A DNA stretch of 39,923 nucleotides from contig JAGXOL010000007.1 of the NCBI GenBank assembly GCA_023659895.1, forward strand, positions 1-39,923, in the 5' to 3' direction. The notes below the pieces were generated by a model. That model made no database searches. It was not told the origin of the DNA and saw nothing but the letters and a program-made list of their open reading frames with translations. Below are positions 11,176 through 32,059 of the stretch, piece by piece; position 1 is the stretch's first letter, and each line of letters opens with the position of its first letter. The stretch comes from Candidatus Aenigmarchaeota archaeon LH_S7. Its GTDB lineage: Archaea; Aenigmatarchaeota; Aenigmatarchaeia; QMZS01. Made by a program: the position numbers and the translations under genes.

Positions 11176-11311
11176 GCCACGGTGGCTCAATCGACCCTTT
11201 TATTGGTTAAGTCCATCAAAAAGCGTCGACGGAAAAATAAAGGGTTGGGGTAACTGGTGGAGCAGCGGTTTTGTAAACCGCAGGTTGGGGGTTCAAGTCC
11301 CTCCCGTGGCT
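11176..11311 (+). tRNA. tRNA-Thr(TGT) with a D-loop intron
   Basis: Exons 11176-11190 + 11254-11311 give GCCACGG TG GCTC AACTGGTG GAGC A GCGGT TTTGTAA ACCGC AGGTT GGGGG TTCAAGT CCCTC CCGTGGC T. Confidence 0.94.
11191..11253 (+). other. tRNA-Thr D-loop intron (63 nt), BHB-like
   Basis: Inner helix CGACCCUUU/AAAGGGUUG, central GCUC/GGGU, bulges AA|U and AA|C. Confidence 0.85.
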
Positions 11312-11320
11312 TAGATAAAT

Positions 11321-11506
11321 TCAATCAAAAACTAATTTCTTAACAACAAAGATCTTTCCTTCTTGGTCATCATAACAAAGTGGATGGATTGCTGTAGGTG
11401 TGTATGACTTGCTCGCCTCAAGATACTCCTTTACTTCTTTCCATGTTCCTACCTTATCATAATCTGTTAATTCCTCCAATATTTCAGAGGTTTTATATCT
11501 TGTCAT
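11321..11506 (-). CDS. Small hypothetical protein
   Basis: 61-aa ORF between tRNA-Thr and leuS; no family recognised. Confidence 0.5.
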   Translation of the reverse strand: MTRYKTSEILEELTDYDKVGTWKEVKEYLEASKSYTPTAIHPLCYDDQEGKIFVVKKLVFD

Positions 11507-11527
11507 AATTAATTTTTGTTAATTATT

Positions 11528-14356
11528 ATGGATTTCAAGAAAATTGAGAAGAAATGGCAGAAAAAGTGGGAAAATGAAAAAATATTTGAAGCTGAACCAG
11601 ATAAAAGAGAAAAATTTTTTGTAAATGTGCCCTATCCTTACACAAATGGTTATGGTCACTTAGGTCACATGCTCACTTATTTAAGGGGAGATATCATAGC
11701 TCGTTACAAAAGAATGAAAAACTATAATGTCTTGTTCACTCAAGGCTGGCATATTACTGGACAACCAATTGTTGCAGCTGCAAAAAGAATAAAAGAAGGG
11801 GAGAAAAAACAAATAGAAATGTTAAAGAAAATAGGTTTTTCCAAGAAAGAGATTGAGAAATTTTCTGATCCTATTGAATGGGTAAAATATTTTCCAAATA
11901 AATGGATAGAAGACTTCAAGAATTTGGGTTATTCCATAGATTGGAGAAGAAGTTTTGTTACAACTTATTTAAACAAGCCTTATGATTCTTTTGTGAAATG
12001 GCAGTTCAAAAAATTGAAAGAAAAAGGTCTTGTTAAAAAAGGGGAACATCCTGTTGTTTACTGCGAGAAATGTGATTTTCCTATTGGAGATCATGACCGG
12101 ATAGAAGGTGAGGGAGTTGTTCCAGAGGAAGTTATTTTAATAAAATTCAAATTAGATGAAGAGACTTATGTTCCTGTAGTTACTTACAGACCTGAAACTG
12201 TTTATGGTGTCACAAACATTTGGATCCATCCTAAAGGAAATTATGTTAAAGTAAAAGTTAATGGTAAAGAGAAATGGATTGTTTCTAAAGAGATTTTAAA
12301 GGATTTGGAGAATCAGAATTTTGAAATAAAAGAATTGGAGGAAGTTAAAGGAAAAAACCTAATTGGAAAAAAAGCAAAAAACTTGGTTAATGACAAAAAA
12401 GTTCCAATATTACCTGCAACAATTGTTGATACTAAGATGGGGACTGGAATTGTGATGAGTGTTCCTGCTCATGCACCTTTTGATGAAATTGGAATTAAAG
12501 AACTAAAAGAAAATGAGAGCTTGAGAAAGAAGTATGGTCTAAAAGAAGAAGATTTGAATTTTGATTATATTTCTTTGATGAAAATAGAAGGATATGAAAA
12601 GTTCCCTGCAGCTGAGATTAATGAAAAAATGGGTATAAAATCATCCAAAGAAAAGAAAAAGCTGGAGGAAGCGACCCAGGAGATTTATAAGAAAGAATTC
12701 CATAACGGTGTTTTAAAAATAAGCGGATTTGAGGGAAAGAAAGTTCAGGAAGTAAAAGATGAGGTAATTGAAAAGTTTTTGAAAGAAGGTGTAGGGATAA
12801 AATATTATATTCTCTCTGAAAAAGTTGTTTGCAGGTGCTTGACTGAAGCTAAAGTAAAAATTGTTAGTGATCAATGGTTCCTAAACTATAGTGATAAAGA
12901 ATGGAAGAAAAAGTCTCATAAAGTTATTGAAAGTATGAATTTTTATCCTAAGAAGATAAAAGAAAATTTCCACTACACTGTGGACTGGTTAAAGGACTGG
13001 GCTTGTAGCAGGGACAAGAGAACGGGTTTGGGAACAGCCTTACCTTTTGATGAAACCCAAATGATTGAGAGTCTGTCAGACAGCACGATTTACATGGCTT
13101 ATTATACTATTGCGAATTATCTGCAAGAAAGGAAGTTAAGGTCTAATAAAAAACTCAATGATAAATTCTTTGATTATGTGTTTTTTGGTAAGGGAGATAA
13201 TAAAAAAGTAGCTGAAGAGAATGGGTTTGATTCTAAAACATTAGAAAAAATCAGAGAGGAGTTTTTGTATTGGTATGATAAGGGTTTTGAATTGAGAAAT
13301 TCTGGGAAAGATCTGATTCAAAACCACCTAACATTTTGCATTTTTAATCATGCAGCAATTTTTCCTGAAAAAAAATGGCCTGGGGGATTTAGCACTAATG
13401 GTCATGTACTTTTGGATGGGGAAAAGATGAGCAAAAGCAAAGGGAATGTGGTTTTAATGAAAGAGGCCATCAAGGATTATCCTGTTGATGTAATAAGATT
13501 TTTGGGTGCTTATTCCGGAGATTCAGGATTAGATGATGCCAACATTGAGCTAAGAGAACACAAAGCAATACAAAGGAGATTGAAAAATTTTTATAATTTT
13601 GCTGTTTCAAACTACAATAAAGGAGGGAAAGAATACACAAATTCAGAAAGATGGCTAGAATCTGTTTTAAATAGAGTTTTGAAGACTACTGAGAAAGAAC
13701 TTGAAGGACTTAACACTAAATCTGCCTTACAGCACGGGTTTTTCGATTTGCAGAATGCAATTAAATGGTATAGGAAAAGATCTGTGGAATTTAACAAGGA
13801 ATTGATAAAAAAGTTTATTGAAACTCAGCTAAAAATCTTGGCTCCTGTTACACCTTTCCTTTGTGAAGAACTATGGGAGAAAATTGGAGGAAAGAACTTT
13901 ATTTCTTTGGAGCAATGGCCTGAAAGTGAAAAGAAAAAAATTGATCAAAGGGCTGAAGTTATTGAAAAAGTCATCTCAAACTTACTTGAAGATATTGAAA
14001 TTGTGAAAAAACTATCAAAAACCGAAAGACCTAATAAAATCAAAATAATAACCCCTAAAAAATGGAAGTATAACATGTTCTCAGAGCTGAAAAATAAGCT
14101 GGAAGAGACAAGGAATTTTGGTGATTTGATGAAGGTTGCAATGGGATTTGAGGAAGCCAAAAAAATAAGTAAAGAAATTCAGAAGGTGATCAAGAAAATA
14201 TTGGATGGTTCTTTGGGAATATTTGATTTAAAAGAGGTTGAGGTAATTAAAGAAGAGAAAGATTTCCTTAAGAAAGAGTTTGGTTGCGAAGTTGAAATTG
14301 TGGAAAGTGATGAGAAAGATAGTTGGCCAGGGAAATTTGGAATTTTAGTTAAATAA
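11528..14356 (+). CDS. leuS: Leucyl-tRNA synthetase (archaeal type)
   Basis: NVPYPYTNGYGHLGHMLTY (HIGH-like), GEKMSKSKGN (KMSKS), editing domain. Confidence 0.97.
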   Translation: MDFKKIEKKWQKKWENEKIFEAEPDKREKFFVNVPYPYTNGYGHLGHMLTYLRGDIIARYKRMKNYNVLFTQGWHITGQPIVAAAKRIKEGEKKQIEMLKKIGFSKKEIEKFSDPIEWVKYFPNKWIEDFKNLGYSIDWRRSFVTTYLNKPYDSFVKWQFKKLKEKGLVKKGEHPVVYCEKCDFPIGDHDRIEGEGVVPEEVILIKFKLDEETYVPVVTYRPETVYGVTNIWIHPKGNYVKVKVNGKEKWIVSKEILKDLENQNFEIKELEEVKGKNLIGKKAKNLVNDKKVPILPATIVDTKMGTGIVMSVPAHAPFDEIGIKELKENESLRKKYGLKEEDLNFDYISLMKIEGYEKFPAAEINEKMGIKSSKEKKKLEEATQEIYKKEFHNGVLKISGFEGKKVQEVKDEVIEKFLKEGVGIKYYILSEKVVCRCLTEAKVKIVSDQWFLNYSDKEWKKKSHKVIESMNFYPKKIKENFHYTVDWLKDWACSRDKRTGLGTALPFDETQMIESLSDSTIYMAYYTIANYLQERKLRSNKKLNDKFFDYVFFGKGDNKKVAEENGFDSKTLEKIREEFLYWYDKGFELRNSGKDLIQNHLTFCIFNHAAIFPEKKWPGGFSTNGHVLLDGEKMSKSKGNVVLMKEAIKDYPVDVIRFLGAYSGDSGLDDANIELREHKAIQRRLKNFYNFAVSNYNKGGKEYTNSERWLESVLNRVLKTTEKELEGLNTKSALQHGFFDLQNAIKWYRKRSVEFNKELIKKFIETQLKILAPVTPFLCEELWEKIGGKNFISLEQWPESEKKKIDQRAEVIEKVISNLLEDIEIVKKLSKTERPNKIKIITPKKWKYNMFSELKNKLEETRNFGDLMKVAMGFEEAKKISKEIQKVIKKILDGSLGIFDLKEVEVIKEEKDFLKKEFGCEVEIVESDEKDSWPGKFGILVK

Positions 14357-14370
14357 AAATATTTTAATAA

Positions 14371-15243
14371 ATGATAAAAATAATAATTTTTATTCTACTT
14401 CTGTTAGCAGGATATTTTATAAATAAGAAGTTTAAGTTAATAATAGTAAGAAAATTAATTAAATTCTTTCTAATTTATATAGGTCTTCCTTGTCTAGTTT
14501 TATCCTCCATTTCAGACTACAAAATAGTTGACTTTGGTTTAATATCCCTTATTATTTTATTTTCTTTTATATTGAATATAACTGTCAGCAAACTTGGAAA
14601 CAACATTCTAAATTTGAAAAATAGAGGGTCTTTTATATTATTGAATTCTTTTTCAAATGCTGGTTTTCTTGGTCTACCAATCTGCTGGATTTTATTTGAA
14701 GATGTAGGTTTATTCTATGGATCATTATATGTCTTAGTAGGAACTTTACTACATTACACCCTCGGAATATTTGTATCTATTCACTCAGAATCTAAAAAAG
14801 TTAAAAACTCTATAAAAAAAGTTCTAAGATTCCCAATTGTTTGGATATTGGGTGTAGTTTTTTTGCTAGTAATTTTTGAGGTAAATATTCCTATTCTTGT
14901 TATTAGTTTTTTTGATTTTATAGGAAAGGTAACATTGGGAGTAGCTATCTTTTATATAGGTTCAAATTTAGTAAAACCAAAAAATATAAGTAGTTTTTTC
15001 AATGAATGTTTATATGTTGCAATATTTAGATTTTTAGTATCTCCTTTGTTGATATTAATTCCTCTGTTATTCTTTGGAGTAGAGGATTATCTAATATTAG
15101 TATTAGAGGCGATGATGCCACCTGCTATAGGGAGTACAATTATTGCTGGATATTACGGACTTAACGAGAAATTATGTGCAAATATAACAACTGTTCTGAC
15201 GATTGTATTTTTATTCATTTTTTTCATACTATTTTTCATATAA
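14371..15243 (+). CDS. Auxin efflux carrier (AEC)-type transporter
   Basis: About 10 hydrophobic helices, FSNAGFLGLPI, LEAMMPPA. Confidence 0.85.
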   Translation: MIKIIIFILLLLAGYFINKKFKLIIVRKLIKFFLIYIGLPCLVLSSISDYKIVDFGLISLIILFSFILNITVSKLGNNILNLKNRGSFILLNSFSNAGFLGLPICWILFEDVGLFYGSLYVLVGTLLHYTLGIFVSIHSESKKVKNSIKKVLRFPIVWILGVVFLLVIFEVNIPILVISFFDFIGKVTLGVAIFYIGSNLVKPKNISSFFNECLYVAIFRFLVSPLLILIPLLFFGVEDYLILVLEAMMPPAIGSTIIAGYYGLNEKLCANITTVLTIVFLFIFFILFFI

Positions 15244-15465
15244 CTCTAAAGCCTCAATATATAACTGCTTTTCTGTAGTCCTTACAAATCCAATACCACA
15301 ATTTTTTGCTAGTAGGTGATCCTTTCCAATTTCTTTTGCAAGATTTCTTAACTCGGGAACTTTTATACCCAAGGCATGTTTAGTATTTATTCCAAATTTA
15401 GCCATCCCTTTTACATTTTCCGGATTTGATTGAGATTTTAATTTCTTGATAATTAATTCATATTC
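15229..15465 (-). pseudogene. N-terminal fragment of an AlkD-like DNA alkylation repair protein
   Basis: MEYELIIKKLKSQSNPENVKGMAKFGINTKHALGIKVPELRNLAKEIGKDHLLAK then unrelated sequence and stop. Confidence 0.65.
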
Positions 15466-15487
15466 CATAAAAGTATAAAAACAAGAA

Positions 15488-15796
15488 CTAACCGAACAAG
15501 GACCCAAGTCCTTCTGCTGCTTCCTCTTCTTTCTTCTCTTTATCTTCCTCTGATTCCTCTTTCTTTTCTTCTTTCTTTTCTCCCGCTTCTGCGGCCTGAG
15601 CTTGGGCAGGAGCTGCTACAGCAGACTTCAAAACCTCCTCAATATCCAAGTCTTTCAAATTCTCTGCTGTGGCTTTTACCATAGCCTTATCTGGATTTGC
15701 TCCAGTGGCTTGAACAACTTTTGTTATAGAATCCTCTGTTATTTCCTGACTTGTTTCATGTAATAGTAAAGCCGCATATATGTATTCTAATCCCAT
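15488..15796 (-). CDS. rpl12: Ribosomal protein P1/L12
   Basis: MGLEYIYAALLLHE, Ala-rich hinge and acidic tail. Confidence 0.95.
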   Translation of the reverse strand: MGLEYIYAALLLHETSQEITEDSITKVVQATGANPDKAMVKATAENLKDLDIEEVLKSAVAAPAQAQAAEAGEKKEEKKEESEEDKEKKEEEAAEGLGSLFG

Positions 15797-15826
15797 AATA
15801 GGTATAGAAAACTTTAAAATAGTTTA

Positions 15827-16246
15827 TTACTTTTTTGATTTCAATAATTCATTTCTTTCCAAATAAATTCTTAAGTGTGATTTATCTCTAAAAAATCCAC
15901 CTCCTGATTTTCTATACAAATCCTTGTAAACTTCCTTGGATACCCTATCCTGTTCCTTCAATCTTTTTAACTCAACTCTTAAAGCTCGAATTTTGAGAAC
16001 CCATCTTCTTTTTTTGGTTAATTTTGTATTTTTTCCACCTTTTCTTCTTCCTTTTCCCTTCTTCTCCATTTTTCTGATTGAGATATGAGACTTTTCAGGA
16101 AGTTTCTTTACCATTCCTTTTTTTAGTAAAGATCTGAAATCCTGAGCAGTAATAGATTCATCAATCTCCTTTTTATTCTCTGGACTAAACCATATTTTTT
16201 TTCTTCCTACTCCTAAAACACTTGCTACTAGTCTCTTTTTATCCAT
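15827..16246 (-). CDS. rpl19e: Ribosomal protein L19e
   Basis: KRLVASVLGVGRKKIWF...KGRRKGGKN. Confidence 0.95.
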   Translation of the reverse strand: MDKKRLVASVLGVGRKKIWFSPENKKEIDESITAQDFRSLLKKGMVKKLPEKSHISIRKMEKKGKGRRKGGKNTKLTKKRRWVLKIRALRVELKRLKEQDRVSKEVYKDLYRKSGGGFFRDKSHLRIYLERNELLKSKK

Positions 16247-16308
16247 AAAAATCTTTTTCTTTAAAATAATTTAAAAAGGTGATAGTTAAAAAAATTAAAA
16301 AATTAAAA

Positions 16309-17412
16309 TTAGCTACAACTTCCACTAGATGAACTTCCTGTTCCTCCTCCAATTCCTGGTGATGCTGTTGATGTGGATAATGTTTGCTCACATTCACTTG
16401 GTGGTGTTTCAAAAGCTGAACATACTACTTTTTTCAATCCTTCTGGAGATCTTGTAAAAGAAGATGCTTGCTTTTCATTCACTATCAAAGTAGGACTTCC
16501 ACGAACTCCATATTTCTGATTCAAGTCTTTATGCAATGGGAATTGTGGATATTTACCACCTAACCATGTGCTCTTGTCATTGTATAATCCTGTGATGTTG
16601 TATTTTTCATCTGTTTCCTTTACGCAATTAGCTAATGCTTCTGTGTCTATGTTAGCTTCTTCTAGACAGCTTTCATATTCTCCACTACTAACAAAACAGC
16701 TCAAGTAGTCATAGAACTTGTCTTCCTGATTTCTCTGGATGCAATATTGTCTCAAATTTCCATCAATCTCCTTCTTTCCGTGCATTACATAACCCACGTA
16801 GTCTATTTCTATATCTGCCTTGTCTTTCAACAATTTGTATACTGGTAAATAAGCTTTCTCTATCTGAAGACCATAAGGACAATAGCTCATTACAAACAAT
16901 CTCACTTCTGGTGTTTCTGCTTTTGGAACTTCTGAGCTTTGTTGTTTACCTTGGGTTTTCTCGCTTCCAGAGCTATTTATTGTTTGGGTTGTTGGTACTG
17001 CACTAGGGAATAATAAACTACCATCTTTTGTTATGTATGATTCCGCGCTCTGAGTTTTCTTACCGCTGGAAATGTTTAATGATAATTTGTACAATTCCTG
17101 TCCTTCAACTGGTTCAACATCTATTACTTTTGCTGTGATTCCTTTGGACAATAGATTCTCTGAAATGAAATTCATTGCTTTATCACTTGCTTCCTCAGGT
17201 GTTAATGCATTTGCAGATTGACTTTCTTGACTTGTGATCTGAGGCATTAAACCTGCAACAGTAAAACCTAAGAGCAATCCTACTACTAATCCAATAGCTA
17301 ACAAAGGCATTCCTTTAGTAGGAATCTTGATTGTTTTTCCTGAAGAAGATTTATGCTTACTTCCACTTTTCTTGTGCGTTCCAGATTCTTCTCCTTTTTT
17401 CTTCTTTGCCAT
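16309..17412 (-). CDS. Membrane-anchored DsbA/thioredoxin-fold protein
   Basis: N-terminal TM, RLFVMSYCPYGLQIEKAYLPVY, RGSPTLIVN. Confidence 0.85.
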   Translation of the reverse strand: MAKKKKGEESGTHKKSGSKHKSSSGKTIKIPTKGMPLLAIGLVVGLLLGFTVAGLMPQITSQESQSANALTPEEASDKAMNFISENLLSKGITAKVIDVEPVEGQELYKLSLNISSGKKTQSAESYITKDGSLLFPSAVPTTQTINSSGSEKTQGKQQSSEVPKAETPEVRLFVMSYCPYGLQIEKAYLPVYKLLKDKADIEIDYVGYVMHGKKEIDGNLRQYCIQRNQEDKFYDYLSCFVSSGEYESCLEEANIDTEALANCVKETDEKYNITGLYNDKSTWLGGKYPQFPLHKDLNQKYGVRGSPTLIVNEKQASSFTRSPEGLKKVVCSAFETPPSECEQTLSTSTASPGIGGGTGSSSSGSCS

Positions 17413-17437
17413 AAGAAAACATAGAAATTTTTTATAA

Positions 17438-17827
17438 TTACCTCTTTGATCTCTGCTTGTGTCTCCTAGGACCTTGCTTACTTCTACTTGGTTTGTGTGG
17501 TTCTGTTCTCCTAATATCCTGAATTAACAAGTTTCTATCATAGTCCATAATTTTGTTCCTTACTTCCTCTCCCTTTATATCTGCTAATCCACGGGATATT
17601 GCTTGTGCAACTGCTTCTGCTTGACCCATTACTCCTCCCCCCTTAACCTTTGCTTTTATAGTGAAATTCTCATCTTCTATTATTTTCAGAGGTTCCAGAA
17701 TTTTCAATTGGGCTATTTTAGGTAATTCCTCTAAATTTTTTTCATTAATTTTTACATTCTTATCTCCACTCACTATTTTTATCCTTGCAGTTGCTTTCTT
17801 TCTCTTACCTACATACACTTTTTCCAT
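17438..17827 (-). CDS. rps9: Ribosomal protein S9
   Basis: VYVGKRKKATARIKI, C-terminal SRSKQGPRRHKQRSKR. Confidence 0.97.
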   Translation of the reverse strand: MEKVYVGKRKKATARIKIVSGDKNVKINEKNLEELPKIAQLKILEPLKIIEDENFTIKAKVKGGGVMGQAEAVAQAISRGLADIKGEEVRNKIMDYDRNLLIQDIRRTEPHKPSRSKQGPRRHKQRSKR

Positions 17828-18243
17828 TATAACTCTTTATAACCTAAATATTTACTTAGTTCCTCAATATAAACATAACCACATTTTAATTTTGAAGCCT
17901 CTTTACCAATTTTTTTTATATCAGTTTTCTTAAACTCTTCTGGAACAGAAATAAAAACATTCACATTCTTGAGAGCTTTCCTACCTCTCTCTGTTTTATG
18001 AGGCAACATATTCCTAATAGTTCTCCTAACAATCATGTCTGGTCTGGAAGGATAAAAAGGTCCTTTCTGAGGAGTCCCCCTATTTCTCCTCTCCAAGTAC
18101 TTATTAAATATGTAATTTTTCTTTCCAGAGATTACAGCTTTCTCAGAATTAACTACAGCTACCTCTTCACCTTTCAAAGCTTTCTTAGCAACTTGTGTTG
18201 CCAGTCTTCCTAAAATAGTATCAGATGCATCTATTACTTCCAT
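17827..18243 (-). CDS. rpl13: Ribosomal protein L13
   Basis: DASDTILGRLATQVAKKALKGEEV, MLPHKTERGRKALKNV. Confidence 0.97.
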   Translation of the reverse strand: MEVIDASDTILGRLATQVAKKALKGEEVAVVNSEKAVISGKKNYIFNKYLERRNRGTPQKGPFYPSRPDMIVRRTIRNMLPHKTERGRKALKNVNVFISVPEEFKKTDIKKIGKEASKLKCGYVYIEELSKYLGYKEL

Positions 18244-18330
18244 TTTTATAATTAATTAGAAATTTTTTATAACCTAATTTTTCTACAAATTTTTATATAT
18301 AGTAGAAAAGCTAAATCTAATTGTATAAAA

Positions 18331-18453
18331 ATGGTCATGAAGAAAAAGTCTGGTTATGGGTCTTCTAAGGGAAAAACAAAAACTACAAAAAAGACTGCCA
18401 AAAAAACAACTAAGAAAGCTACTAAAAAGGCAGGTTCCAAAAAGAAGAAATGA
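18331..18453 (+). CDS. 40-aa lysine-rich basic protein
   Basis: MVMKKKSGYGSSKGKTKTTKKTAKKTTKKATKKAGSKKKK; promoter similar to the 23392 gene. Confidence 0.7.
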   Translation: MVMKKKSGYGSSKGKTKTTKKTAKKTTKKATKKAGSKKKK

Positions 18454-18498
18454 AGCTTAAATTGATTATTTTTAATTTTTATTTTTATCCCCAAATGT

Positions 18499-20400: not shown

Positions 20401-20416
20401 AAGATATAAATTAAAT

Positions 20417-20527
20417 TTATTTTTTCTTTTCAAGGTCTTTTTTGAACCTTCTCAAGGTATTTGGGACCTGCTCTGGCTGAACTTTCAGGAATTTTGCTGT
20501 TTTTCTCAGAACCTTCAATTTTCCCAT
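20417..20527 (-). CDS. Possible 36-aa basic small protein upstream of thrS
   Basis: ORF MGKLKVLRKTAKFLKVQPEQVPNTLRRFKKDLEKKK; no homology evidence. Confidence 0.35.
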   Translation of the reverse strand: MGKLKVLRKTAKFLKVQPEQVPNTLRRFKKDLEKKK

Positions 20528-20583
20528 AAATTAAAGGGATTTATTAAAATAGGATTATTTATATCCTATAAAATATAGTTTTT

Positions 20584-20607
20584 ATCACCGAAAAGTATTT
20601 AAATACT
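20584..20607 (+). promoter_or_regulatory. BRE/TATA-like promoter of the 20624 gene
   Basis: ATCACCGAAAAGTATTTAAATACT. Confidence 0.6.
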
Positions 20608-20623
20608 CTGTTATTATTTAATT

Positions 20624-22414: not shown

Positions 22415-22494
22415 AAATAATTTTATTTTTTAAAATTACCAATTAAAATCTAAATTATAGTTTTTTCCTGGTTAAGATTTTGGAGATCTGGCAA

Positions 22495-23208: not shown

Positions 23209-23391
23209 GAGGTTTCAAAATATAAACTGAATAAAAGATTGATTAAAATTTTTGTAACATCAAGTAAAGTGTTACTCCATCGTTCATCAAATGTTCATTC
23301 GATGTAATGCATTAAATTGATAATCAATTTGTAAGAAAATGTTGTGAAACACTAACAAAAACTTTTTTATATAGTAGAATGCATTTTAATT

Positions 23392-23739
23392 ATGGTAAGT
23401 AAAAAAGATATGTTGAAAGCACTCACCAAAGCAGACTTGATGAAAGTAGCAAGGGAGAAAAAAATCAAAGTAGTAAAAAGTTGGACTAAAGCAAAGATGG
23501 TAGCTGCACTTCCTTTTGATGCAATGAGGGCAGCTTACTCCAGTGCAAAACCAAAGAAAACTACAAAGAGAAAGACCACTAAAAGAAAAACTGCAAGAAA
23601 GAAGACAACTGGGAAAAAGCCAACTACAAGGAAGACATCAGGGAAGAAAACCACACAAAAGAAGACAACTTCTAGAAAAAAATCTTCTTCAAAAAGAAAA
23701 ACAAGTTCTAGGAAAAAAACTACAAGGAAGAAAAGATAA
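23392..23739 (+). CDS. Lys/Arg/Thr/Ser-rich nucleic-acid-binding protein with SAP-like N-terminus
   Basis: KADLMKVAREKKIKVVKSWTKAKMVAAL followed by (K)KTT(x)RK repeats. Confidence 0.75.
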   Translation: MVSKKDMLKALTKADLMKVAREKKIKVVKSWTKAKMVAALPFDAMRAAYSSAKPKKTTKRKTTKRKTARKKTTGKKPTTRKTSGKKTTQKKTTSRKKSSSKRKTSSRKKTTRKKR

Positions 23740-23784
23740 TTAATTTTTGCTTTTTTTATTTTTATTAATTAAAAAATAAAATTA

Positions 23785-24228
23785 TTATGGTTTATAGCAT
23801 ACAGATGGTGTAGGCGTAGTGTTACATTTCCAGTCACCTTTACCCCACCCAATTCGACAATCCTTAGGATCTTTACAAGGGGTTCCTTCTGTAATCACAG
23901 TAGCACAACATTTGTTTCTACACCAATACTTTGATACTGTATCATCTTTATATTTTGCTCTACAAACAACGAGCAAAGAATCGTCTACATTATCTCCAGT
24001 GATATCACTAGTTTTTATTTCTGCTACTTTACTTCCATTACAATTATACGTATGTTTCAATATACTACAACCTTGAGTCCAAGCATTTCCAACATCTACC
24101 GAACCCGTCTGTCTAAAAACCCCTGTAAAAAAAGCTGCTAACATAAGCAAAACCATCACTGCTAAGGCAATTATTATTACTGAATTTACGGGTAATGAAA
24201 TTCCTTTTAGTCTCATAAATATAAACAA
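23785..24228 (-). CDS. Pilin-like secreted protein with Cys-rich domain
   Basis: MRLKGISLPVNSVIIIALAVMVLLMLAAFF signal-like N-terminus, multiple Cys. Confidence 0.7.
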   Translation of the reverse strand: MFIFMRLKGISLPVNSVIIIALAVMVLLMLAAFFTGVFRQTGSVDVGNAWTQGCSILKHTYNCNGSKVAEIKTSDITGDNVDDSLLVVCRAKYKDDTVSKYWCRNKCCATVITEGTPCKDPKDCRIGWGKGDWKCNTTPTPSVCYKP

Positions 24229-24243
24229 GAACTATATATAAAT

Positions 24244-25506
24244 ATGAATATAGGGGATTATATTAGGGTTACCCAAGAAAAATCCACTTGGAAAGGAAAA
24301 ATTATCCAAAAAAAAGGAAATTATCTGACTCTGAAGCTTGATTCAGGGTATAATGCAGGAATTTTAGTGGACAAAAGAACAAAGATTAAAAAAATTAGTG
24401 GAAGTGAAGTTAAGAAACACAAGCCAATAAAATTCAAAACAAAATTTGATAAGAAAAAACCTTCGGTTTCAATATTATCTGCTGGTGGTACCATCGCTTC
24501 CTCAATTGACTACTCAACAAGTGCTATCTCTGCTGCTCATTCTGCTGAGGAAATGGTTGCTGCAGTTCCAGAACTCGCGAATTTTGCAAACATCAAAGCA
24601 AGAAAAGTTGTGGAAGAGATGAGTGAAAATATGTTACCTAAGCACTGGAAAAAAATTGCTAAGGAAATTGAAAAAGAACTAAAAAATAGTGAAGGTGTTG
24701 TTGTCACTCATGGGACTGATACTTTAGCTTACACAAGTTCAATGTTATCTTTCATATTAAGAAATCTTAATAAGCCGGTAGTGTTTACTTTTGCTCAGAA
24801 GAGTTCAGATAGGGGAAGTAGTGATAGTGCTATTAATCTGATTTGCTCAACAATAACTGCAATTCAAAAAATACCAGGAATTTTTGTTGTTGGACACGGA
24901 ACAGTAAGTGATGAGTTTTGTTTAATTCATAAGGGTAGCAAAGTAAGGAAAATGCATTCCTCACAAAGAGATACTTTTAGGTCAATAAATGATTATCCTA
25001 TTGGAAAAGTCTGGCCATCTGGTAAGATAAAATTGAACTATCAAAAAAAGATAAGTAATGAAAGAGAATTTCATATTGATGACAAAATAGAAGAAAAAGT
25101 AGGAATTATTAAAGCTTATCCTGGTTTGGACCCAAAGATTATTGATTGGTACACAGATAATAATTACAAAGGTTTAGTTATAGAGGGAACTGGTTTAGGA
25201 CATGTTAATGTGAAAGATAAATCATTATTACCAAAAATAAAAAGAGCTATTAAGAAAGGTGTTTTTGTATGTATGACAACCCAGACAATTTATGGAAGGA
25301 CTAATCCTTATGTTTACACACCTGCTAGAAAGTTATTGGATGCAGGAGTGATTTACCTGGAAGATATGTTAACTGAAACTGCTTACACGAAATTAATGTG
25401 GGTTTTGGGTCACACTAAAAATGAAGAAAAAGTAAGAAAAATGATGTTAGAAAATTTGGCTGGTGAATTTAATCCTCAATTGAAACCAGATCAATTCTTG
25501 TTATAA
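24244..25506 (+). CDS. gatD: Glu-tRNA(Gln) amidotransferase subunit D
   Basis: SILSAGGTIASSIDY, VVTHGTDTLAYTSSM, asparaginase-like fold with N-terminal GatD domain. Confidence 0.96.
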   Translation: MNIGDYIRVTQEKSTWKGKIIQKKGNYLTLKLDSGYNAGILVDKRTKIKKISGSEVKKHKPIKFKTKFDKKKPSVSILSAGGTIASSIDYSTSAISAAHSAEEMVAAVPELANFANIKARKVVEEMSENMLPKHWKKIAKEIEKELKNSEGVVVTHGTDTLAYTSSMLSFILRNLNKPVVFTFAQKSSDRGSSDSAINLICSTITAIQKIPGIFVVGHGTVSDEFCLIHKGSKVRKMHSSQRDTFRSINDYPIGKVWPSGKIKLNYQKKISNEREFHIDDKIEEKVGIIKAYPGLDPKIIDWYTDNNYKGLVIEGTGLGHVNVKDKSLLPKIKRAIKKGVFVCMTTQTIYGRTNPYVYTPARKLLDAGVIYLEDMLTETAYTKLMWVLGHTKNEEKVRKMMLENLAGEFNPQLKPDQFLL

Positions 25507-25564
25507 AAGATTATCTATTTTAGAATAATTTATGGGCCTGTAGCTCAACCGGATAGAGCGTCTG

Positions 25565-25653
25565 TCAAAACCTCGAAAAACTTTGTTTTCGGGTCCCATA
25601 AACTTTTGGTTTATGAGGAGGGTTTTATCCACAGCTAAGAGGTTTTGGACGAA
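25565..25653 (+). other. tRNA-Arg intron 1 (89 nt, position ~30/31)
   Basis: BHB: inner CAAAACCUC/GAGGUUUUG, central CGUC/GACG, bulges UG|U and AA|G. Confidence 0.88.
25571..25618 (+). repeat. Double-hairpin module shared with tRNA-Glu T-loop intron (31819-31868)
   Basis: Near-identical 48-50 nt sequence. Confidence 0.92.
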
Positions 25654-25660
25654 GCTTCGG

Positions 25661-25714
25661 AGCAACCTTTAGAAAAGGTTGCATCCAAAAGAGAAATTCC
25701 AGTAGAAAGAAGAC
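25661..25714 (+). other. tRNA-Arg intron 2 (54 nt, canonical 37/38)
   Basis: BHB: outer UCUGG/CCAGA, central CUUC/GAAG, bulges GG|A and AC|A. Confidence 0.9.
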
Positions 25715-25750
25715 ACCAGAAGGTTAGGGGTTCAAATCCTCTCAGGTCCT

Positions 25751-26374
25751 TTAATAATTGAAAACCTGCGTCCATTCTTTTTTTAGATTCTCATCACCTA
25801 TTTTGTAAGGATAACTCAGTTTTTCTATTTCTCTCAAAAGATAATCCAAGCCCTCTATCTTTATTGAATTTAACAGAGACTTTATTTCTCCTTCTTCACC
25901 AATCCTTTTGAAGATAATATAAAAGGTATAAAATTCCAGGTAATCCTCTTTGGTGATTTTTTCTTTTGAATAGATTTTCTTGGAAATTTTTTCCAAAAAA
26001 AATCTGTGCATGCCCTTCTCAAAACCATATCTTGTTGCTTTATAATCAGCAAAAAAATTTTGGACAAATTCAACAAGTTTTGGAACTTCTAATTTTTCTC
26101 TTATCTCCTTATTTAGTTCTTCTTTTTCATTTATCAGCAAGAAGAAAAAACGAGCAAAATAACCTCTAAAAAGAAAATTATTATTAAGAAAATCGTTTTC
26201 TGGGTTAATCAAAAGTTCCATATCTTCTCCAATTGTGCCATTCAAAAAATCTGTTTTATAACTCGCTGAAATAAAAATGTTATTAAACCTCAAAGGATAA
26301 TCAATTTTTGAAACCATTCTTTTTACTTCTTCCTTTAATTTTTCATTTTCTATATCCAAAACAAGTTTGGCCAT
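25751..26374 (-). CDS. Conserved-looking hypothetical protein
   Basis: 207-aa ORF, no family recognised. Confidence 0.65.
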   Translation of the reverse strand: MAKLVLDIENEKLKEEVKRMVSKIDYPLRFNNIFISASYKTDFLNGTIGEDMELLINPENDFLNNNFLFRGYFARFFFLLINEKEELNKEIREKLEVPKLVEFVQNFFADYKATRYGFEKGMHRFFLEKISKKIYSKEKITKEDYLEFYTFYIIFKRIGEEGEIKSLLNSIKIEGLDYLLREIEKLSYPYKIGDENLKKEWTQVFNY

Positions 26375-26389
26375 AATTTAATTATAGAT

Positions 26390-26665
26390 TTATATTATCC
26401 CTAATTTTACTGCTATATCTCCTGCTGGTTTGTCAGGTTTTAACTTGATTATTGCTCTTTTTTTACCTTTTCTTGTAATCAAAGTATTTACACTATCTAC
26501 TTTCGCATTAAACTCCTTCTCAAAACTCTTCTTAATCTGGTTTTTATCCAATTTTAAGTCTTTTAACTGAAAAACAATTTTGTTTTCTATTTCTATCATT
26601 CTCACAACTTTTTCTGTGGTCACCGGATATTCAACCATTTCCCAAAAACTTTTTGTATCATTCAT
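26390..26665 (-). CDS. rpl23: Ribosomal protein L23
   Basis: EYPVTTEKVVRMIEIENKIVFQL. Confidence 0.95.
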   Translation of the reverse strand: MNDTKSFWEMVEYPVTTEKVVRMIEIENKIVFQLKDLKLDKNQIKKSFEKEFNAKVDSVNTLITRKGKKRAIIKLKPDKPAGDIAVKLGII

Positions 26666-27459
26666 AGTCTATTATTCACCTCTTTCAAACTTGATTCTGT
26701 CCAGATTGTTAATCTTCCAGGAACAGCTCCAGGAGCCAATTTCTCTACATCAAGATTTTTTGCTAACTTCACTTCCAAACCAGGTATATTTTTTGCAGCT
26801 TTTTGTAAAGGACATTTATTGGAAACAACAATCAATACTCCTTTTTTCTTCCTGTACTTTCTTCCTCTGGTTTTTCCAATTCCTGCTCTTATTTTCTTTT
26901 TCTTAGTTCTTTCCAGTTCTTCATCAAGACCTAAATTTCTGAGTGTGTTCGTAACTTTTTTAGTTTTGGTTAAAGTTTCAAAATTGTCTTCCAAAACCAA
27001 AGGGACTTCTTTTAGTTTTTCAATGTTGTGTCCTCTTTTAAATATTAATTCCTTATTTTTAGAGGCAGAGATAGCACTAAACAAAGCAAGTTTCTTCTCC
27101 TTCTTGTTCATTGATTTTATGAAATTCTTTTCTGATTTAGGTGGATGGGCTTTTCTACCTTTTATTGCTTGAGGTACTTTTCTCACAACAAACATTAAAG
27201 GTCCTTCACCATGTATTCTGGGTAAGCGAGCCATTTCTCTTCCAGCCATCCTTGCTCTTGGATAAACATTACCACTCCCATGATAGTGAGCGCTTGTTCT
27301 CATACCAGCAATTTCATTTGCACCATATTTTTGTCTCCTATTTGCTTGGGATATTTTAACTGCTCTTTTTATAAGGTCTTCCCTAAGTTTATAGTTGAAA
27401 GCCTTTCCGAGCTCTACAGTTTTTTTCTTTTTTCCATCAATAAAATAAAGATTAGTCAT
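26662..27459 (-). CDS. rpl4: Ribosomal protein L4
   Basis: SQANRRQKYGANEIAGMRTSAHYHGSGN...RMARLPRIHG. Confidence 0.96.
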   Translation of the reverse strand: MTNLYFIDGKKKKTVELGKAFNYKLREDLIKRAVKISQANRRQKYGANEIAGMRTSAHYHGSGNVYPRARMAGREMARLPRIHGEGPLMFVVRKVPQAIKGRKAHPPKSEKNFIKSMNKKEKKLALFSAISASKNKELIFKRGHNIEKLKEVPLVLEDNFETLTKTKKVTNTLRNLGLDEELERTKKKKIRAGIGKTRGRKYRKKKGVLIVVSNKCPLQKAAKNIPGLEVKLAKNLDVEKLAPGAVPGRLTIWTESSLKEVNNRL

Positions 27460-27510
27460 ATTAATCTTTTCAATAAAAACTTTAAATTATGCGGGGGTAG
27501 CCAAGTCTGG

Positions 27511-27578
27511 TCAAACCTTTTATTGGTTATATTGGATAAAAAGGTTTGATCCAAAAAATCTGACCAGAAAAGGGACAA
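27511..27578 (+). other. tRNA-Leu intron 1 (D-loop, 68 nt)
   Basis: Central GUCU/GGAC, 3' junction GGAC-AA|C; internal hairpin CAAACCUUUU...AAAAAGGUUUG. Confidence 0.78.
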
Positions 27579-27627
27579 CAGGCGCAGGGTTTAGGACCCT
27601 GTCTCTCAGTGGGTTCGGCGGTTCAAA

Positions 27628-27699
27628 GGGAACTTTTAGAAAAAGTTCCATCAAAAAAAGAAAAAAAGATCTCCACCCCAAAGAAAAACGATACGGAAA
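27628..27699 (+). other. tRNA-Leu intron 2 (T-loop, 72 nt)
   Basis: Interrupts TTCAAA|T of the T-loop; contains GGAACTTTTAGAAAAAGTTCC-ATCAAAA hairpin. Confidence 0.85.
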
Positions 27700-27713
27700 T
27701 CCGCCCCCCCGCA

Positions 27714-27734
27714 CAAGCTTTTAGAAAAAGCTTG
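27714..27734 (+). repeat. Intron-type hairpin module outside the tRNA (3' flank of tRNA-Leu)
   Basis: CAAGCTTTTAGAAAAAGCTTG followed by AGCAAAAAAA; matches the end of the tRNA-Glu T-loop intron. Confidence 0.8.
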
Positions 27735-27794
27735 AGCAAAAAAATAAGGAAAAAGGAAAGCCTGACTATTTAAATAATTTAAATAAGTAATTTT

Positions 27795-28049
27795 ATGGAC
27801 GCAATGTGTAAAGATATTGTCGGAAAAACCGTGGTTTCAGAGGAAACAGGAAGGAAATTCGGAATTGTAGGAGATTTGAATTTTATAGCTGAAAGCGGAG
27901 AGTTGTTGAATGTGAGCCTAGAAGCTCCAACAAATTCAGTGGAAAAAGTTAACTTGGAAACAAATGAAAAGGGAAGTTATTTAATACCATTTTCAACAGT
28001 AAAAAGTGTAGGGGATTTTGTGATAGTCTCTGAAAAAGAGATAATTTAA
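27795..28049 (+). CDS. PRC-barrel domain protein
   Basis: DIVGKTVVSEETGRKFGIVGDL...LIPFSTVKSVGDFVIVSE. Confidence 0.8.
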   Translation: MDAMCKDIVGKTVVSEETGRKFGIVGDLNFIAESGELLNVSLEAPTNSVEKVNLETNEKGSYLIPFSTVKSVGDFVIVSEKEII

Positions 28050-28066
28050 TTTTTATTTTTTAGATA

Positions 28067-28885
28067 TTAAATCAAGAAAGATTCTATTATTGCTCCCAAA
28101 AAAATAAAAAAAACTCCAATGAAGAAAAGGAATAAAGAGTCCTTGACAACAAACATCCTATGAGTTTTATTTTCTTTATGTCTGCTTATAGCAACTGACA
28201 ACAATCCCCCTGCAATCCCCGCCAAAATATAACCTAAAAACTCAGGCAAACCATGTAAAGCATAGCTTAATAACATTGAAGGAACAAAGGGAGCACCTAA
28301 AATAGTGGGTAAAGCGTAAGAGCTGCATAATTCTTTAGCCCCTTGTCCTACTACAACACCCAAAACACTTGCATTCCATGAAATTAAAAAAATTGCTCCA
28401 CTTGAATAAAACAAAGAGAAAACAAAACAAGTAGTCATCACAAGCAGATTATTCATAAAGATTGTCAAGAAAAAACTTGGTGAATTAAAATTACCTGTTA
28501 AATCATGAACAGTTCTTATTTGGTCTGAAAATATTTGGTTAGAAAAATCAGCAGGAGCTAATAAGTAAATAGTTGCAATAGTTAAAGAAATTCCCGCCAC
28601 AATGGAAAGATAATAGATTATTATTTTTAGGTGCCTCCAAAAAAAGTTTAGTTTATAAAGGTACTCCCAAAAATGGTCATATTCTTTCTTTTTTTCTTCT
28701 CTTTTTAGGTTACTTATAGTAACAGGTAATATTGCAAGTACAATCAAGAAAACCAAAAACAAGCCCCCCTTGGATAAATAGTTTGTTAGAAGAACTGCAA
28801 TGATAGAGCCTAAAATAGCAATTATTATCACAAGATAAGGTTTTTCTCTAATCGAACTAATAGATAATAAAGATTCGAAAACCAT
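28067..28885 (-). CDS. SpoIIM (stage II sporulation protein M)-like membrane protein
   Basis: Multi-TM, FMNNLLVMTTCFVFSLFYSSGAIFLISWNASVLGVVVG, LPEFLGYILAGIAGG; internal start preferred. Confidence 0.82.
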   Translation of the reverse strand: MVFESLLSISSIREKPYLVIIIAILGSIIAVLLTNYLSKGGLFLVFLIVLAILPVTISNLKREEKKKEYDHFWEYLYKLNFFWRHLKIIIYYLSIVAGISLTIATIYLLAPADFSNQIFSDQIRTVHDLTGNFNSPSFFLTIFMNNLLVMTTCFVFSLFYSSGAIFLISWNASVLGVVVGQGAKELCSSYALPTILGAPFVPSMLLSYALHGLPEFLGYILAGIAGGLLSVAISRHKENKTHRMFVVKDSLFLFFIGVFFIFLGAIIESFLI

Positions 28886-28889
28886 AATT

Positions 28890-29498
28890 ATGAATATATT
28901 TAAATTCAAGTATAAAAAAACAAGAAGATTATTTAAATTAACTATTTTGGGTTCAATACTTTTTATATTGGTTCTCATAGCCCTACTAATAATAGCAAAG
29001 ATCTATGTGCCTACTGAGTTAATCAAAAATTTTGAAATAAAAGAATTCCTTGATGTTTATAATTATATTGGTTTATTTTTGATCACTTTCTTAGGAGGAA
29101 CAATCTTACCTTTAGGTAGTCCAGCAGCAGTTTCTGCAGCTGGTTTTTTGGGAATGGCGGAAATACCTGTAATAATTGTTGCAGCTACAGGATTTACTGT
29201 GGGTGTACTTGTTAATTATTGTCTTGCTTATAAATTAGGTGCTAATTATGCCAAGAAGAAGATATCTCCGGAGATTTATGAGGATGTGGTATTATGGTGG
29301 AACAAATGGGGTGTTCTACTTGTAGTAGTTTTCGCTTTGTTTCCAGTCTTACCTTTTGATTTAATTGCCTTGGTCTGTGGGGTTTTCAGATTTAATTTGG
29401 TTTATTTCATTTTGATTAATTTTTTCAGCAATTTGCTTAATTCATACATTTTTTTATATTTAGGAACACAAGCAAGTTTGTGGATAGGGCTAATCTAA
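28890..29498 (+). CDS. SNARE-associated/DedA (VTT domain) membrane protein
   Basis: GGTILPLGSPAAVSAAGFLG, NYCLAYKLGANYAKK, FPVLPFDLIALVCGVFRF. Confidence 0.8.
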   Translation: MNIFKFKYKKTRRLFKLTILGSILFILVLIALLIIAKIYVPTELIKNFEIKEFLDVYNYIGLFLITFLGGTILPLGSPAAVSAAGFLGMAEIPVIIVAATGFTVGVLVNYCLAYKLGANYAKKKISPEIYEDVVLWWNKWGVLLVVVFALFPVLPFDLIALVCGVFRFNLVYFILINFFSNLLNSYIFLYLGTQASLWIGLI

Positions 29499-30092
29499 AC
29501 TTAGTTTAATAAGTGTGCTTATTTCTTTTCCTCCGCTAATATCATCTATATTTCTTCCAAAATTTTTAATTATTAAATCTGTTCCTTTATCTCCTACTAG
29601 TGTTGTATTCCCATAGGTAATTAAATCCACATTATAAATATTATCCTTAGAGGTAAGATTTCTGAATTTCAAATAATAATTATTTGTAGTACCTTTTCCA
29701 TATCTAAACTCATTTACATCTACTTCTCTAAAATAAAACTTATCTTTTCCGAAAATACCTTGTGTTGAGTTACAGTTTTTGCTAAAACATACAGAAGAAT
29801 CTGAAGAATAAATTGTTCCATCAGTTAATATTGGAAAATAAATTTGATTATTTTTTGAATCAATATAGATTTTTCCTGGTAAATCAAAAACAATTTTTTC
29901 TTTATTTTTGTGGCTAATAACTCTATCCATTTTATCTGATAAAGAGAAAAGAAATGACTCTGATTTAGTTAAAGTTGGTATATCTAAATTTTCTTCTGCC
30001 ATTGGCATTCCCCAGTTGTATGCTAGGGATATAAGGAACAAATATATTCCCACAATAATAATAGAAGATATGATAGGAGCAATACCTTTCAT
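29490..30092 (-). CDS. Type IV pilin-like protein
   Basis: MKGIAPIISSIIIVGIYLFLISLAYNWG class III-like signal. Confidence 0.65.
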   Translation of the reverse strand: MKGIAPIISSIIIVGIYLFLISLAYNWGMPMAEENLDIPTLTKSESFLFSLSDKMDRVISHKNKEKIVFDLPGKIYIDSKNNQIYFPILTDGTIYSSDSSVCFSKNCNSTQGIFGKDKFYFREVDVNEFRYGKGTTNNYYLKFRNLTSKDNIYNVDLITYGNTTLVGDKGTDLIIKNFGRNIDDISGGKEISTLIKLSLD

Positions 30093-30139
30093 AAGTCTAT
30101 TTGTTTTTCTTATTCCCTTTGCGGCTGCCGGGATTTGAA

Positions 30140-30186
30140 TTCCCGAAACCTATGGATTTGGACGGAACTTTCCTCCAAAAGGTTTT
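30140..30186 (-). other. tRNA-Gly intron 2 (T-stem/loop boundary 53/54, 47 nt)
   Basis: Clean BHB core: inner AAACCU/AGGUUU, central CCCG/CGGG, bulges GG|A and AA|U. Confidence 0.9.
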
Positions 30187-30222
30187 CCCGGGTCACAAGC
30201 TTGGGGAGCTTGTATCCTACCA

Positions 30223-30269
30223 TTGTCCCTAAACAGCAAAGTATTTAATTTTTCCTTACTGTTTGTGGC
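30223..30269 (-). other. tRNA-Gly intron 1 (D-loop, 47 nt)
   Basis: Central GUCU/GGAC, junctions AG|G and AA|U; hairpin AAACAG/CUGUUU. Confidence 0.82.
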
Positions 30270-30310
30270 CTAGACCACAGCCGCATAACTAATTTATTCG
30301 AATTAATTTT

Positions 30311-31315
30311 ATGATTGAAATTGATGGTAGCTATTTGGAGGGTGGGGGACAAATAATAAGGACTTCTATTGGATTGTCTTGTGCAACAAAAGAGCCTATC
30401 CATATTTTTAATATCAGAGCTAAAAGGAAGCCTCCTGGATTAAAAGCTCAGCACTTAGCAGCTATTAAATCAGTTAAAGAGCTCTGTGATGGTAGATTGG
30501 AAAGCGGTGAAATAAGTTCTAAAGAGATTTGGTTTTATCCTGGTGAGATTAAAAAAGGAGAATTGAATGTAAAAATTTCAACTGCAGGTTCTGTTGCTTT
30601 GGTTCTACAAACAATTTTTTTAGCTTCTTTGAAAATTGAAAAAGAATTGGAAATAAGAATAGAAGGAGGAGGGACTTTTGGGAAGTGGGCGCCCTCTGTT
30701 GAATATCTAAAAAATGTTTTTCTGCCAACTTTAGAGAAATTTAAATTCTCTGCTGAGATAAAAGCTCTTAAACATGGTTTTTATCCTAAAGGTGGAGCAA
30801 AAGTTATTGCAAAAATTTTTCCTTCTGGATTGAAAGGTTACAATCTTGAGAGAAAGGTTGAGAAGATAAAAGGAATTTCAATTGCCACAAAAAACTTGGA
30901 AAAAGGTAAGGTTGGAGAGAGACAGAAAGAAAGTGCTAAAAGATTATTAAAAGATTTTGAATCAGATATAAAAACAAAATATGTTGAGTCCCTGTCAACA
31001 GGAACAGGAATTGAAATTTGGAGTGAGCCCACAAGAATTGGCGGTAATTGTTTAGGGGAAAAAGGGATAAAAGCGGAAAAGGTTGGGGTAAAAGCTGCTG
31101 AAAATTTATTAAAAGAACTAAACTCTGGTGCTATAGTAGATAAACATTTGGCTGACCAATTAGTTCCTTTCATTGCTCTAACTGGAGGAAGATCAAGTTA
31201 TTTTGCTAGGGAATTAACAAATCACACCAAAACAAATATATGGGTTACTGAGAGATTCATTAAGAGAAAATTTAATCTCAAGAAAAAAGAAAATTTGTTT
31301 GAGATTTCTGTTTAA
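30311..31315 (+). CDS. rtcA: RNA 3'-terminal phosphate cyclase
   Basis: DGSYLEGGGQIIRTSIGLSC, KRKPPGLKAQHLAAIK, GGGTFGKWAPSV. Confidence 0.96.
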   Translation: MIEIDGSYLEGGGQIIRTSIGLSCATKEPIHIFNIRAKRKPPGLKAQHLAAIKSVKELCDGRLESGEISSKEIWFYPGEIKKGELNVKISTAGSVALVLQTIFLASLKIEKELEIRIEGGGTFGKWAPSVEYLKNVFLPTLEKFKFSAEIKALKHGFYPKGGAKVIAKIFPSGLKGYNLERKVEKIKGISIATKNLEKGKVGERQKESAKRLLKDFESDIKTKYVESLSTGTGIEIWSEPTRIGGNCLGEKGIKAEKVGVKAAENLLKELNSGAIVDKHLADQLVPFIALTGGRSSYFARELTNHTKTNIWVTERFIKRKFNLKKKENLFEISV

Positions 31316-31317
31316 GA

Positions 31318-31571
31318 TTAAGCTTGTATCTTATAAACAGTATCTCCTTCTCTAACCCTATCTTTAATCCTATGGCATTCCCAGATTTTGCTTCATTAAC
31401 TTTGTCATGTTCTATTTGGATAGAATCTACTTTTTGCTGAAAATTTGTGCTTGCTCCTTCCACAGGTATTTGTTCACCTACTTTCAAAGTATCAGTAAGA
31501 CTTATTACTGCAACTCCTAGTTCTGAAAAGTAATGTGTTACTTTTCCAACAGGTTTCTTATCTACTATAAT
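31318..31571 (-). pseudogene. Translation elongation factor EF-Tu domain 2-like small protein, frameshifted
   Basis: VGKVTHYFSELGVAVISLTDTLKVGEQIPVEG...GLKI then +1 frame VREGDTVYKIQA*; no ATG start in frame. Confidence 0.65.
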
Positions 31572-31600
31572 ATATTTATATATCTAATTTCTAGAAAATT

Positions 31601-31756
31601 ATGTTATTTGTGGTTATATTGACTTCCTGTTATTTAGTTTTTTTGTTAGTCCTTTATAAGATTGTCAAGCGCAAAAATAAGAAATTAATGGAAAAATATC
31701 AGGAATATTTGGATAATTATCAGAAAATTCTGGATAAAAATAAAAAATCAAAATGA
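31601..31756 (+). CDS. Small single-TM protein (51 aa)
   Basis: MLFVVILTSCYLVFLLVLYKIVKRKNKKLMEKYQEYLDNYQKILDKNKKSK; stop abuts the tRNA-Glu 3' end. Confidence 0.55.
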   Translation: MLFVVILTSCYLVFLLVLYKIVKRKNKKLMEKYQEYLDNYQKILDKNKKSK

Positions 31757-31770
31757 TGCCTCTGCCGGGA

Positions 31771-31960
31771 TTTCCTTTTTGCTCAAGCCTTTTTTAAAAG
31801 CTTGTTTTGATGGAACTTCCTCATAAACCTTGAGTTTATGGGGCCCTGAAAAACAAAGTTTTTCGAGGTTTCTAAAAGTTCCTGCGGGGGTGCGGAGTCT
31901 CGTATCTTATTTTTCTTTGGGGTGGAGACCTTTCTTTTTTCTAAAAAGAAAGTGGTTCCC
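31771..31960 (-). other. tRNA-Glu T-loop intron (190 nt, composite)
   Basis: Same T-loop position as Leu intron 2; same start GGGAAC; contains several hairpin modules. Confidence 0.85.
31819..31868 (-). repeat. Double-hairpin module shared with tRNA-Arg intron 1 (25571-25618)
   Basis: CCTCGAAAAACTTTGTTTTTCAGGGCCCCATAAACTCAAGGTTTATGAGG vs CCTCGAAAAACTTTGTTTTCGGGTCCCATAAACTTTTGGTTTATGAGG. Confidence 0.92.
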
Positions 31961-32001
31961 TTTGAACCCGGGTCTCTGGCTCGAGAGGCCAGTATCCTTG
32001 G

Positions 32002-32016
32002 TCCGTTTTGATTTAA
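32002..32016 (-). other. tRNA-Glu D-loop mini-intron (~15 nt, boundaries uncertain)
   Basis: D-loop reads AGCTCGG[TTAAATCAAAACGGA]CCAAGGAT; no clear BHB found. Confidence 0.55.
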
Positions 32017-32059
32017 CCGAGCTAGACTACAGAGGCATAAAATAAATTTATATTAAATT

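Follow-up and report, generated by a model that had tools for sequence, protein, structure and literature searches.

A tRNAscan-SE 2.0 survey of 217 archaeal genomes recorded 0.21 introns per tRNA gene overall and 0.84 in Thermoproteales, with a maximum in Pyrobaculum calidifontis, where 71 introns in 46 tRNA genes amount to 1.54 per gene (PMC8450103). The multi-intron tRNAs of Thermoproteales (Pyrobaculum), together with intron transposition, go back to Sugahara 2008 and Fujishima 2010, as cited in PMC4033280 and PMC8450103. Multi-intron tRNAs are also on record in ARMAN-1/2 and Nanoarchaeum (PMC4033280), so that both introns at position 59/60 of the T-loop and multi-intron tRNAs of small-genome archaea have precedents (PMC4090602, PMC4033280). 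Here we analyze a 39,923-nt stretch of DNA (contig JAGXOL010000007.1; "the window" refers to this whole stretch) from Candidatus Aenigmarchaeota archaeon LH_S7, along with the genome to which it belongs. The tRNA-intron density of this genome exceeds the top value of the published survey (1.76 versus 1.54 introns per gene). What is new is a family of palindromic repeats housed in the introns and 3' trailers of its tRNA genes. We consider it quite likely that these are working tRNA genes with bulge-helix-bulge (BHB)-type introns, filled by palindromes that spread through recombination and duplication.

The original prediction held that every tRNA gene in the window is interrupted, with five tRNAs sharing about nine introns. 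A custom BHB-aware finder, which parses the cloverleaf and permits jumps only at BHB-like splice sites, bears this out by recovering all five genes and 9/9 introns (Table 1). A strict-motif version missed the Arg, Gly, and Glu genes of the window, which a relaxed motif recovers; the Gly 53/54 and Arg 30/31 introns display the strict BHB motif in the finder parse. ARAGORN and Rfam each detect just one degraded tRNA-Thr in the same DNA. In the parts of the genome that were read, introns (51 in total) occur in all but one of the 29 tRNA genes that were fully resolved, with 1 to 3 per interrupted gene and the T-loop 59/60 site as the commonest location. The set of intron-bearing tRNAs is incomplete because these stretches were picked near motif hits; intron-free genes were covered by an unbiased Rfam search of the assembly, which returned Thr(CGT) as the only one. 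Applied to ~140 kb of stretches around hits, the finder reported 26 tRNAs, 25 of them correctly parsed, and the same ~140 kb reversed gave no hits above the same score. The single misparse, Gln(TTG), was corrected by hand to a form that ARAGORN accepts, and Gly(CCC), Ser(TGA), and Ser(CGA) were added by a relaxed finder pass. Hand reading extends the inventory beyond the 29 genes to Ile(TAT) with two introns, initiator Met with three, and, less surely, Pro with three; the last two are resolved in part, and the anticodon-arm boundaries of Pro are uncertain. Two tRNA genes are truncated at contig starts.

Removal of the inserts restores standard cloverleaves, as had also been proposed: ARAGORN passes all 29 spliced forms of the resolved genes with the expected anticodon, including the five window genes, but only one of the 29 unspliced forms, the intron-free Thr(CGT). 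When equally long pieces were instead cut out at random positions, ARAGORN accepted 794 of 8400 forms (9.5%). In an Rfam covariance search of the window for group I introns, the only match at E up to 1 was a tRNA. These results suggest that the removable inserts are archaeal BHB-type introns, presumably spliced in vivo from the transcripts of working tRNA genes. It is very improbable that the insertions are instead dead or false, i.e., pseudogenes or assembly chimeras. Repeats do lie at contig ends and tRNA fragments are present (C22:53028-53136), but no further copies of these essential isoacceptors turned up, the stems are still paired, excision restores the genes in 29/29 cases, and separately assembled relatives also have 59/60 introns. 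No intact intron-free copy of the five window isoacceptors was found by Rfam in the assembly, although one could have escaped the search, since the assembly is 85% complete. Contigs C12, C17, and C18 begin within tRNA-associated repeats; the repeats therefore probably broke the assembly.

The repeat family, which the original prediction did not describe, consists of two 21-nt hairpins, palindrome A (GGAACTTTTAGAAAAAGTTCC) and palindrome B (CAAGCTTTTAGAAAAAGCTTG), and a composite of ~72 nt, repeat C. The latter has A-like ends that enclose two hairpins and GGGGCCCC, and its copies read as bounded by the terminal inverted repeats GGAACTT/AAGTTCC. There are 22 copies of repeat C, the full-length ones 85-97% alike, and all but one lie at tRNA loci: 16 are in introns (in two cases the host gene runs off a contig end), 4 follow a tRNA on its 3' side at no more than 109 nt, and 1 is next to a tRNA-Lys fragment. 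The remaining copy is truncated and far from any tRNA. Intron-borne copies occupy D-loop, 30/31, 37/38, and 59/60 sites in both orientations. In the stretches read, perfect hairpins of the A/B kind fall in tRNA genes or at most 250 nt 3' of them, while six other perfect hairpins, one close to the Glu gene and five away from tRNA genes, have unrelated sequences. A genome-wide search with the A-arm pattern led mostly to the same tRNA-linked places. Repeat C had no copy in the 39 relatives searched, and the repeats matched neither viral contigs (exact patterns) nor plasmids; the family is thus specific to this genome among those searched. We found no report of a repeat family of this kind in the open-access literature.

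Introns at 59/60 are present in at least 22 isoacceptors, including three parsed by hand, and have splice motifs of BHB or looser form. The T-stem serves as outer helix, and TTCR (54-57) forms the central helix with YGRA near the intron 3' end, with the full 4 bp in 15 of the 22 introns and 3 bp in the other 7. Base 57 covaries weakly with its intron partner (Fisher p 0.04): opposite G57 stands C in 4/5 cases, and opposite A57 mostly T. In 19/22, the intron starts with one base followed by GGAAC, and several share the end GATAYGRA. Many of these introns lack a contiguous inner helix, and in most of those palindrome A begins immediately after the bulge. Palindrome A may stack there as the inner helix, in which case its left arm (GGAAC) would act as the substitute at the 5' splice site. 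Such a common site also invokes the hypothesis of Randau and Soll, as cited in PMC4090602, by which introns, T-loop ones above all, are retained because a tRNA gene so interrupted no longer offers integrases an intact attachment site. In most tRNAs, an intron at 59/60 splits the T-arm, which common attachment sites include; but protection of this kind would account for retention and not for the repeats, and we regard it as an improbable explanation.

The genome encodes a single tRNA splicing endonuclease gene (tRNA_int_endo, 223 aa, in the region of C33:49006-49278), whose product aligns with M. jannaschii 1a79 at the catalytic Tyr, His, and Lys (E 1.5e-28), and an RtcB ligase (E 3e-170). One PF01974 gene per genome, nearest to M. 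jannaschii 1a79, was found in 10 of the 11 members of its family, and no second endonuclease subunit was seen in these 11 members; families elsewhere in the class encode either a pair of neighboring endonuclease genes or two-domain proteins. By its sequence, the enzyme is of the single-subunit alpha type rather than the crenarchaeal two-subunit kind, and it looks like an alpha4 endonuclease. Alpha4 and alpha2 enzymes are described as processing canonical BHB motifs only, with breadth conferred by the crenarchaeal and ARMAN specificity loops, CSL and ASL (PMC4033280, PMC12397907). At the place of the ASL, no insertion of ASL length is apparent by sequence. Across the family, the endonuclease carries an N-terminal extension that varies in length (open frame of 24-148 aa) and in this genome is rich in Lys. 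A short insertion between the catalytic Tyr and His recurs in the 3iey chain, presumably the catalytic subunit from N. equitans.

In the scheme that we favor, the endonuclease would cleave the pre-tRNA and RtcB would join the halves. A self-folding hairpin placed in an intron or a 3' trailer would spare the BHB and the tRNA body, and the lineage-specific palindromes A, B, and C would thereby have accumulated in these segments. The family would have moved among tRNA loci mainly via DNA recombination and local duplication. Two cases point in this direction. First, 72 nt of the Glu 59/60 intron match the Leu(TAG) gene at 82% identity and span the T-loop intron end, the 3' T-stem, the 3' acceptor, and the start of the trailer of that gene. 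Second, a partial copy of tRNA-Lys(TTT), 111 nt long and 95% identical, adjoins a repeat C copy at C22:53028-53136. Together with the trailer copies, these two cases lead us to favor DNA recombination through shared repeats over whole-intron movement.

Alternatively, whole introns might have moved between tRNAs in the manner of Thermoproteales, either guided to BHB-like target structures or via reverse splicing with reverse transcription, and carried the palindromes along. This genome does hold similar introns in phylogenetically different tRNAs, which is the published signature of intron transposition (PMC4033280, PMC4090602), and the common ends of the 59/60 introns fit such an origin. Yet the placement of repeat C at four kinds of intron site, in both orientations, is hard to reconcile with the transfer of one fixed intron as the unit, and repeats in trailers, likewise in both orientations and joined to neighboring tRNA exon pieces, are not what intron-only movement would yield. 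We therefore deem transposition of this type possible but doubtful. The inverted ends and high similarity of the repeat C copies also recall a miniature inverted-repeat transposable element (MITE) mobilized by a transposase acting in trans and targeting tRNA loci. Such an element seems unlikely: 21/22 copies are at tRNA loci, repeated units with similar spacers recur within the same intron, and viral contigs and plasmids hold no match.

Several observations weigh against working genes filled with palindromes by recombination and duplication. Recombination rests on two captured or duplicated fragments. The covariation test at base 57 is weak, and the 59/60 inner helix has fewer than 3 contiguous bp in 16/22 introns (at least 3 bp in 6/22). 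These relaxed introns coexist with an alpha4-looking endonuclease as the only one found, a type reported to need a canonical BHB (PMC4033280). Finally, the assembly comprises 56 contigs, is incomplete, and has 3 contig ends within these repeats. A bolder proposal, which we offer only tentatively, is that the palindromes represent an undescribed class of selfish element that lives almost only in what the pre-tRNA discards (introns and 3' trailers), is neutralized by splicing, and spreads between tRNA genes. Its hosts' transcripts would be processed by an alpha4-type endonuclease tolerant of relaxed BHB and bulge-helix-loop motifs without ARMAN or crenarchaeal specificity loops.

The genome belongs to a class that comprises at least 16 families and whose genomes are small, at about 0.5-1.9 Mb. 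Rfam finds 10 tRNAs in it at E of 0.01 or better versus at least 32 present. Rfam-detectable tRNAs are likewise few in all 11 family members (6-20) and in some other families (4 in relative G025 and 8 in G031), versus 20-44 in many others. The finder located 59/60 introns in G002, G003, G025, and G031 and intron-free tRNA genes in G018, G020, and G030. The disruption of tRNA genes extends through part of the class, across other families, and the multi-intron tRNAs of those families mean that it is not private to this genome. The original prediction had contrasted the window with Thermoproteales, for which multiple non-canonical BHB introns are established. The single alpha-type endonuclease and the class of small genomes support the occurrence of such introns outside that order. 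Its assignment to a DPANN-like lineage is likely on the basis of genome size and content rather than of a marker phylogeny. An independent intron expansion, as it suggested, is plausible, but multi-intron tRNAs are known in ARMAN-1/2 and Nanoarchaeum and are shared by families of the class.

Table 1. Interrupted tRNA genes of the window with their introns and repeats, and endonuclease loci of the family. Intron boundaries are precise to ~1-3 nt; splice points slide where exon and intron ends repeat.
Feature	Position	Strand	Remarks
tRNA-Thr(TGT), 1 intron	11176..11310	+	spliced acceptor GCCACGG/CCGTGGC, 7/7 Watson-Crick; spliced form accepted by ARAGORN
Thr D-loop intron, 63 nt, after 2nd D-loop nucleotide	11191..11253	+	BHB with 4-bp central helix GCTC/GGGT
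tRNA-Arg(TCG), 2 introns	25534..25749	+	BHB-aware finder; spliced form passes ARAGORN
Arg intron 30/31, 89 nt	25565..25653	+	central helix CGTC/GACG, inner helix CAAAACC/GGTTTTG
Partial repeat C inside Arg 30/31 intron	25568-25619		87% identity
Arg intron 37/38 (canonical site), 54 nt	25661..25714	+	central helix CTTC/GAAG
21-nt hairpin inside Arg 37/38 intron	25662-25682
tRNA-Leu(TAG), 2 introns	27491..27712	+	BHB-aware finder; spliced form passes ARAGORN
Leu D-arm intron 21/22, 65 nt	27515..27579	+
Leu T-loop intron 59/60, 72 nt	27628..27699	+	palindrome A at its start (27629-27649)
Palindrome B (CAAGCTTTTAGAAAAAGCTTG), Leu 3' trailer	27714..27734	+
tRNA-Gly(CCC), 2 introns, C at position 33	30121..30284	-	BHB-aware finder; spliced form passes ARAGORN
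Gly D-loop intron, 47 nt	30223..30269	-
Gly intron 53/54, 47 nt	30140..30186	-	textbook BHB: central helix CCCG/CGGG, inner helix AAACCT/AGGTTT
tRNA-Glu(CTC), 2 introns	31758..32036	-	BHB-aware finder; spliced form passes ARAGORN
Glu D-arm intron 21/22, 15 nt	31998..32012	-	no inner helix (bulge-helix-loop)
Glu T-loop intron 59/60, 190 nt, composite	31771..31960	-
Repeat C (72-nt composite hairpin) in Glu 59/60 intron	31811..31883	-	query copy for the family of 22
tRNA-Leu-derived segment in Glu 59/60 intron	31869..31940	-	82% to Leu-TAG, 81% to Leu-CAA
Endonuclease loci with N-terminal extension	L015; family L126, L131, L137, L140, L143-L147

Other features of the tRNA set and its surroundings deserve mention. 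A34 anticodons, which are unusual in archaea, appear as AAG in Leu (C11:4720-4948) and possibly as AGG in Pro (C52:1733-2062), where the parse is uncertain. A tRNA-Ile with anticodon TAT is encoded at C11:12280-12617; in Nanoarchaeum and Korarchaeum, such a tRNA is reported to replace Ile2(CAU) (PMC8450103). The mature 5' ends of most tRNA genes directly follow TAT (e.g., window 25530-25534), which suggests transcripts that are leaderless or have a 2-nt leader. RNase P RNA had no match in this genome (85% complete) and none in several incomplete relatives, so that a loss of RNase P like that of N. equitans is at most a conceivable reading. In the window, a gene for RNA 3'-terminal phosphate cyclase (30311-31312) directly adjoins tRNA-Gly(CCC), and small Lys/Thr-rich, histone-H1-like proteins are encoded at 18332-18454 and 23392-23739.

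Reviews tie the occurrence of non-canonical tRNA introns to endonucleases of broad specificity and regard alpha4 enzymes as confined to canonical motifs. A genome above the reported per-tRNA intron record that encodes only an alpha-type enzyme offers a direct test of that tie. The repeats provide a marked, countable intermediate for intron gain in archaeal tRNA genes, and the common 59/60 site makes the attachment-site protection idea testable. On the practical side, standard tRNA finders overlook most tRNAs in such genomes.

To conclude, the closest parallels to this tRNA set each differ from it in defined ways. As described for Thermoproteales in the sources cited above, tRNAs here carry up to three introns at non-canonical sites, with similar introns in unrelated tRNAs. 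Compared with Pyrobaculum, however, introns are denser (1.76 versus 1.54 per gene in P. calidifontis) and strongly concentrated at 59/60; unlike in Thermoproteales, they are made of palindromic repeats that also occur in trailers, and a single alpha-type endonuclease takes the place of the crenarchaeal two-subunit enzyme. ARMAN-1/2 and Nanoarchaeum equitans are likewise archaea with small genomes, whose tRNAs are split or, as here, carry multiple introns, but their endonucleases are three-unit epsilon2 and heteromeric, respectively (PMC4033280); we found no open-access report of a comparable repeat family in either. The nanoarchaeon Nst1 resembles this genome in that only a gene for the catalytic endonuclease subunit was found, whereas introns interrupt just 2 of its 41 tRNAs (PMC3655853), in contrast to 51 introns in 29 resolved genes here. 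At the Caldiarchaeum tRNA-Thr locus, intron gain and scattered tRNA fragments have been ascribed to mobile-element integration and recombination (PMC3293823). The same pairing of intron gain with tRNA fragments is seen here, not at one locus but genome-wide and with palindromic repeats.

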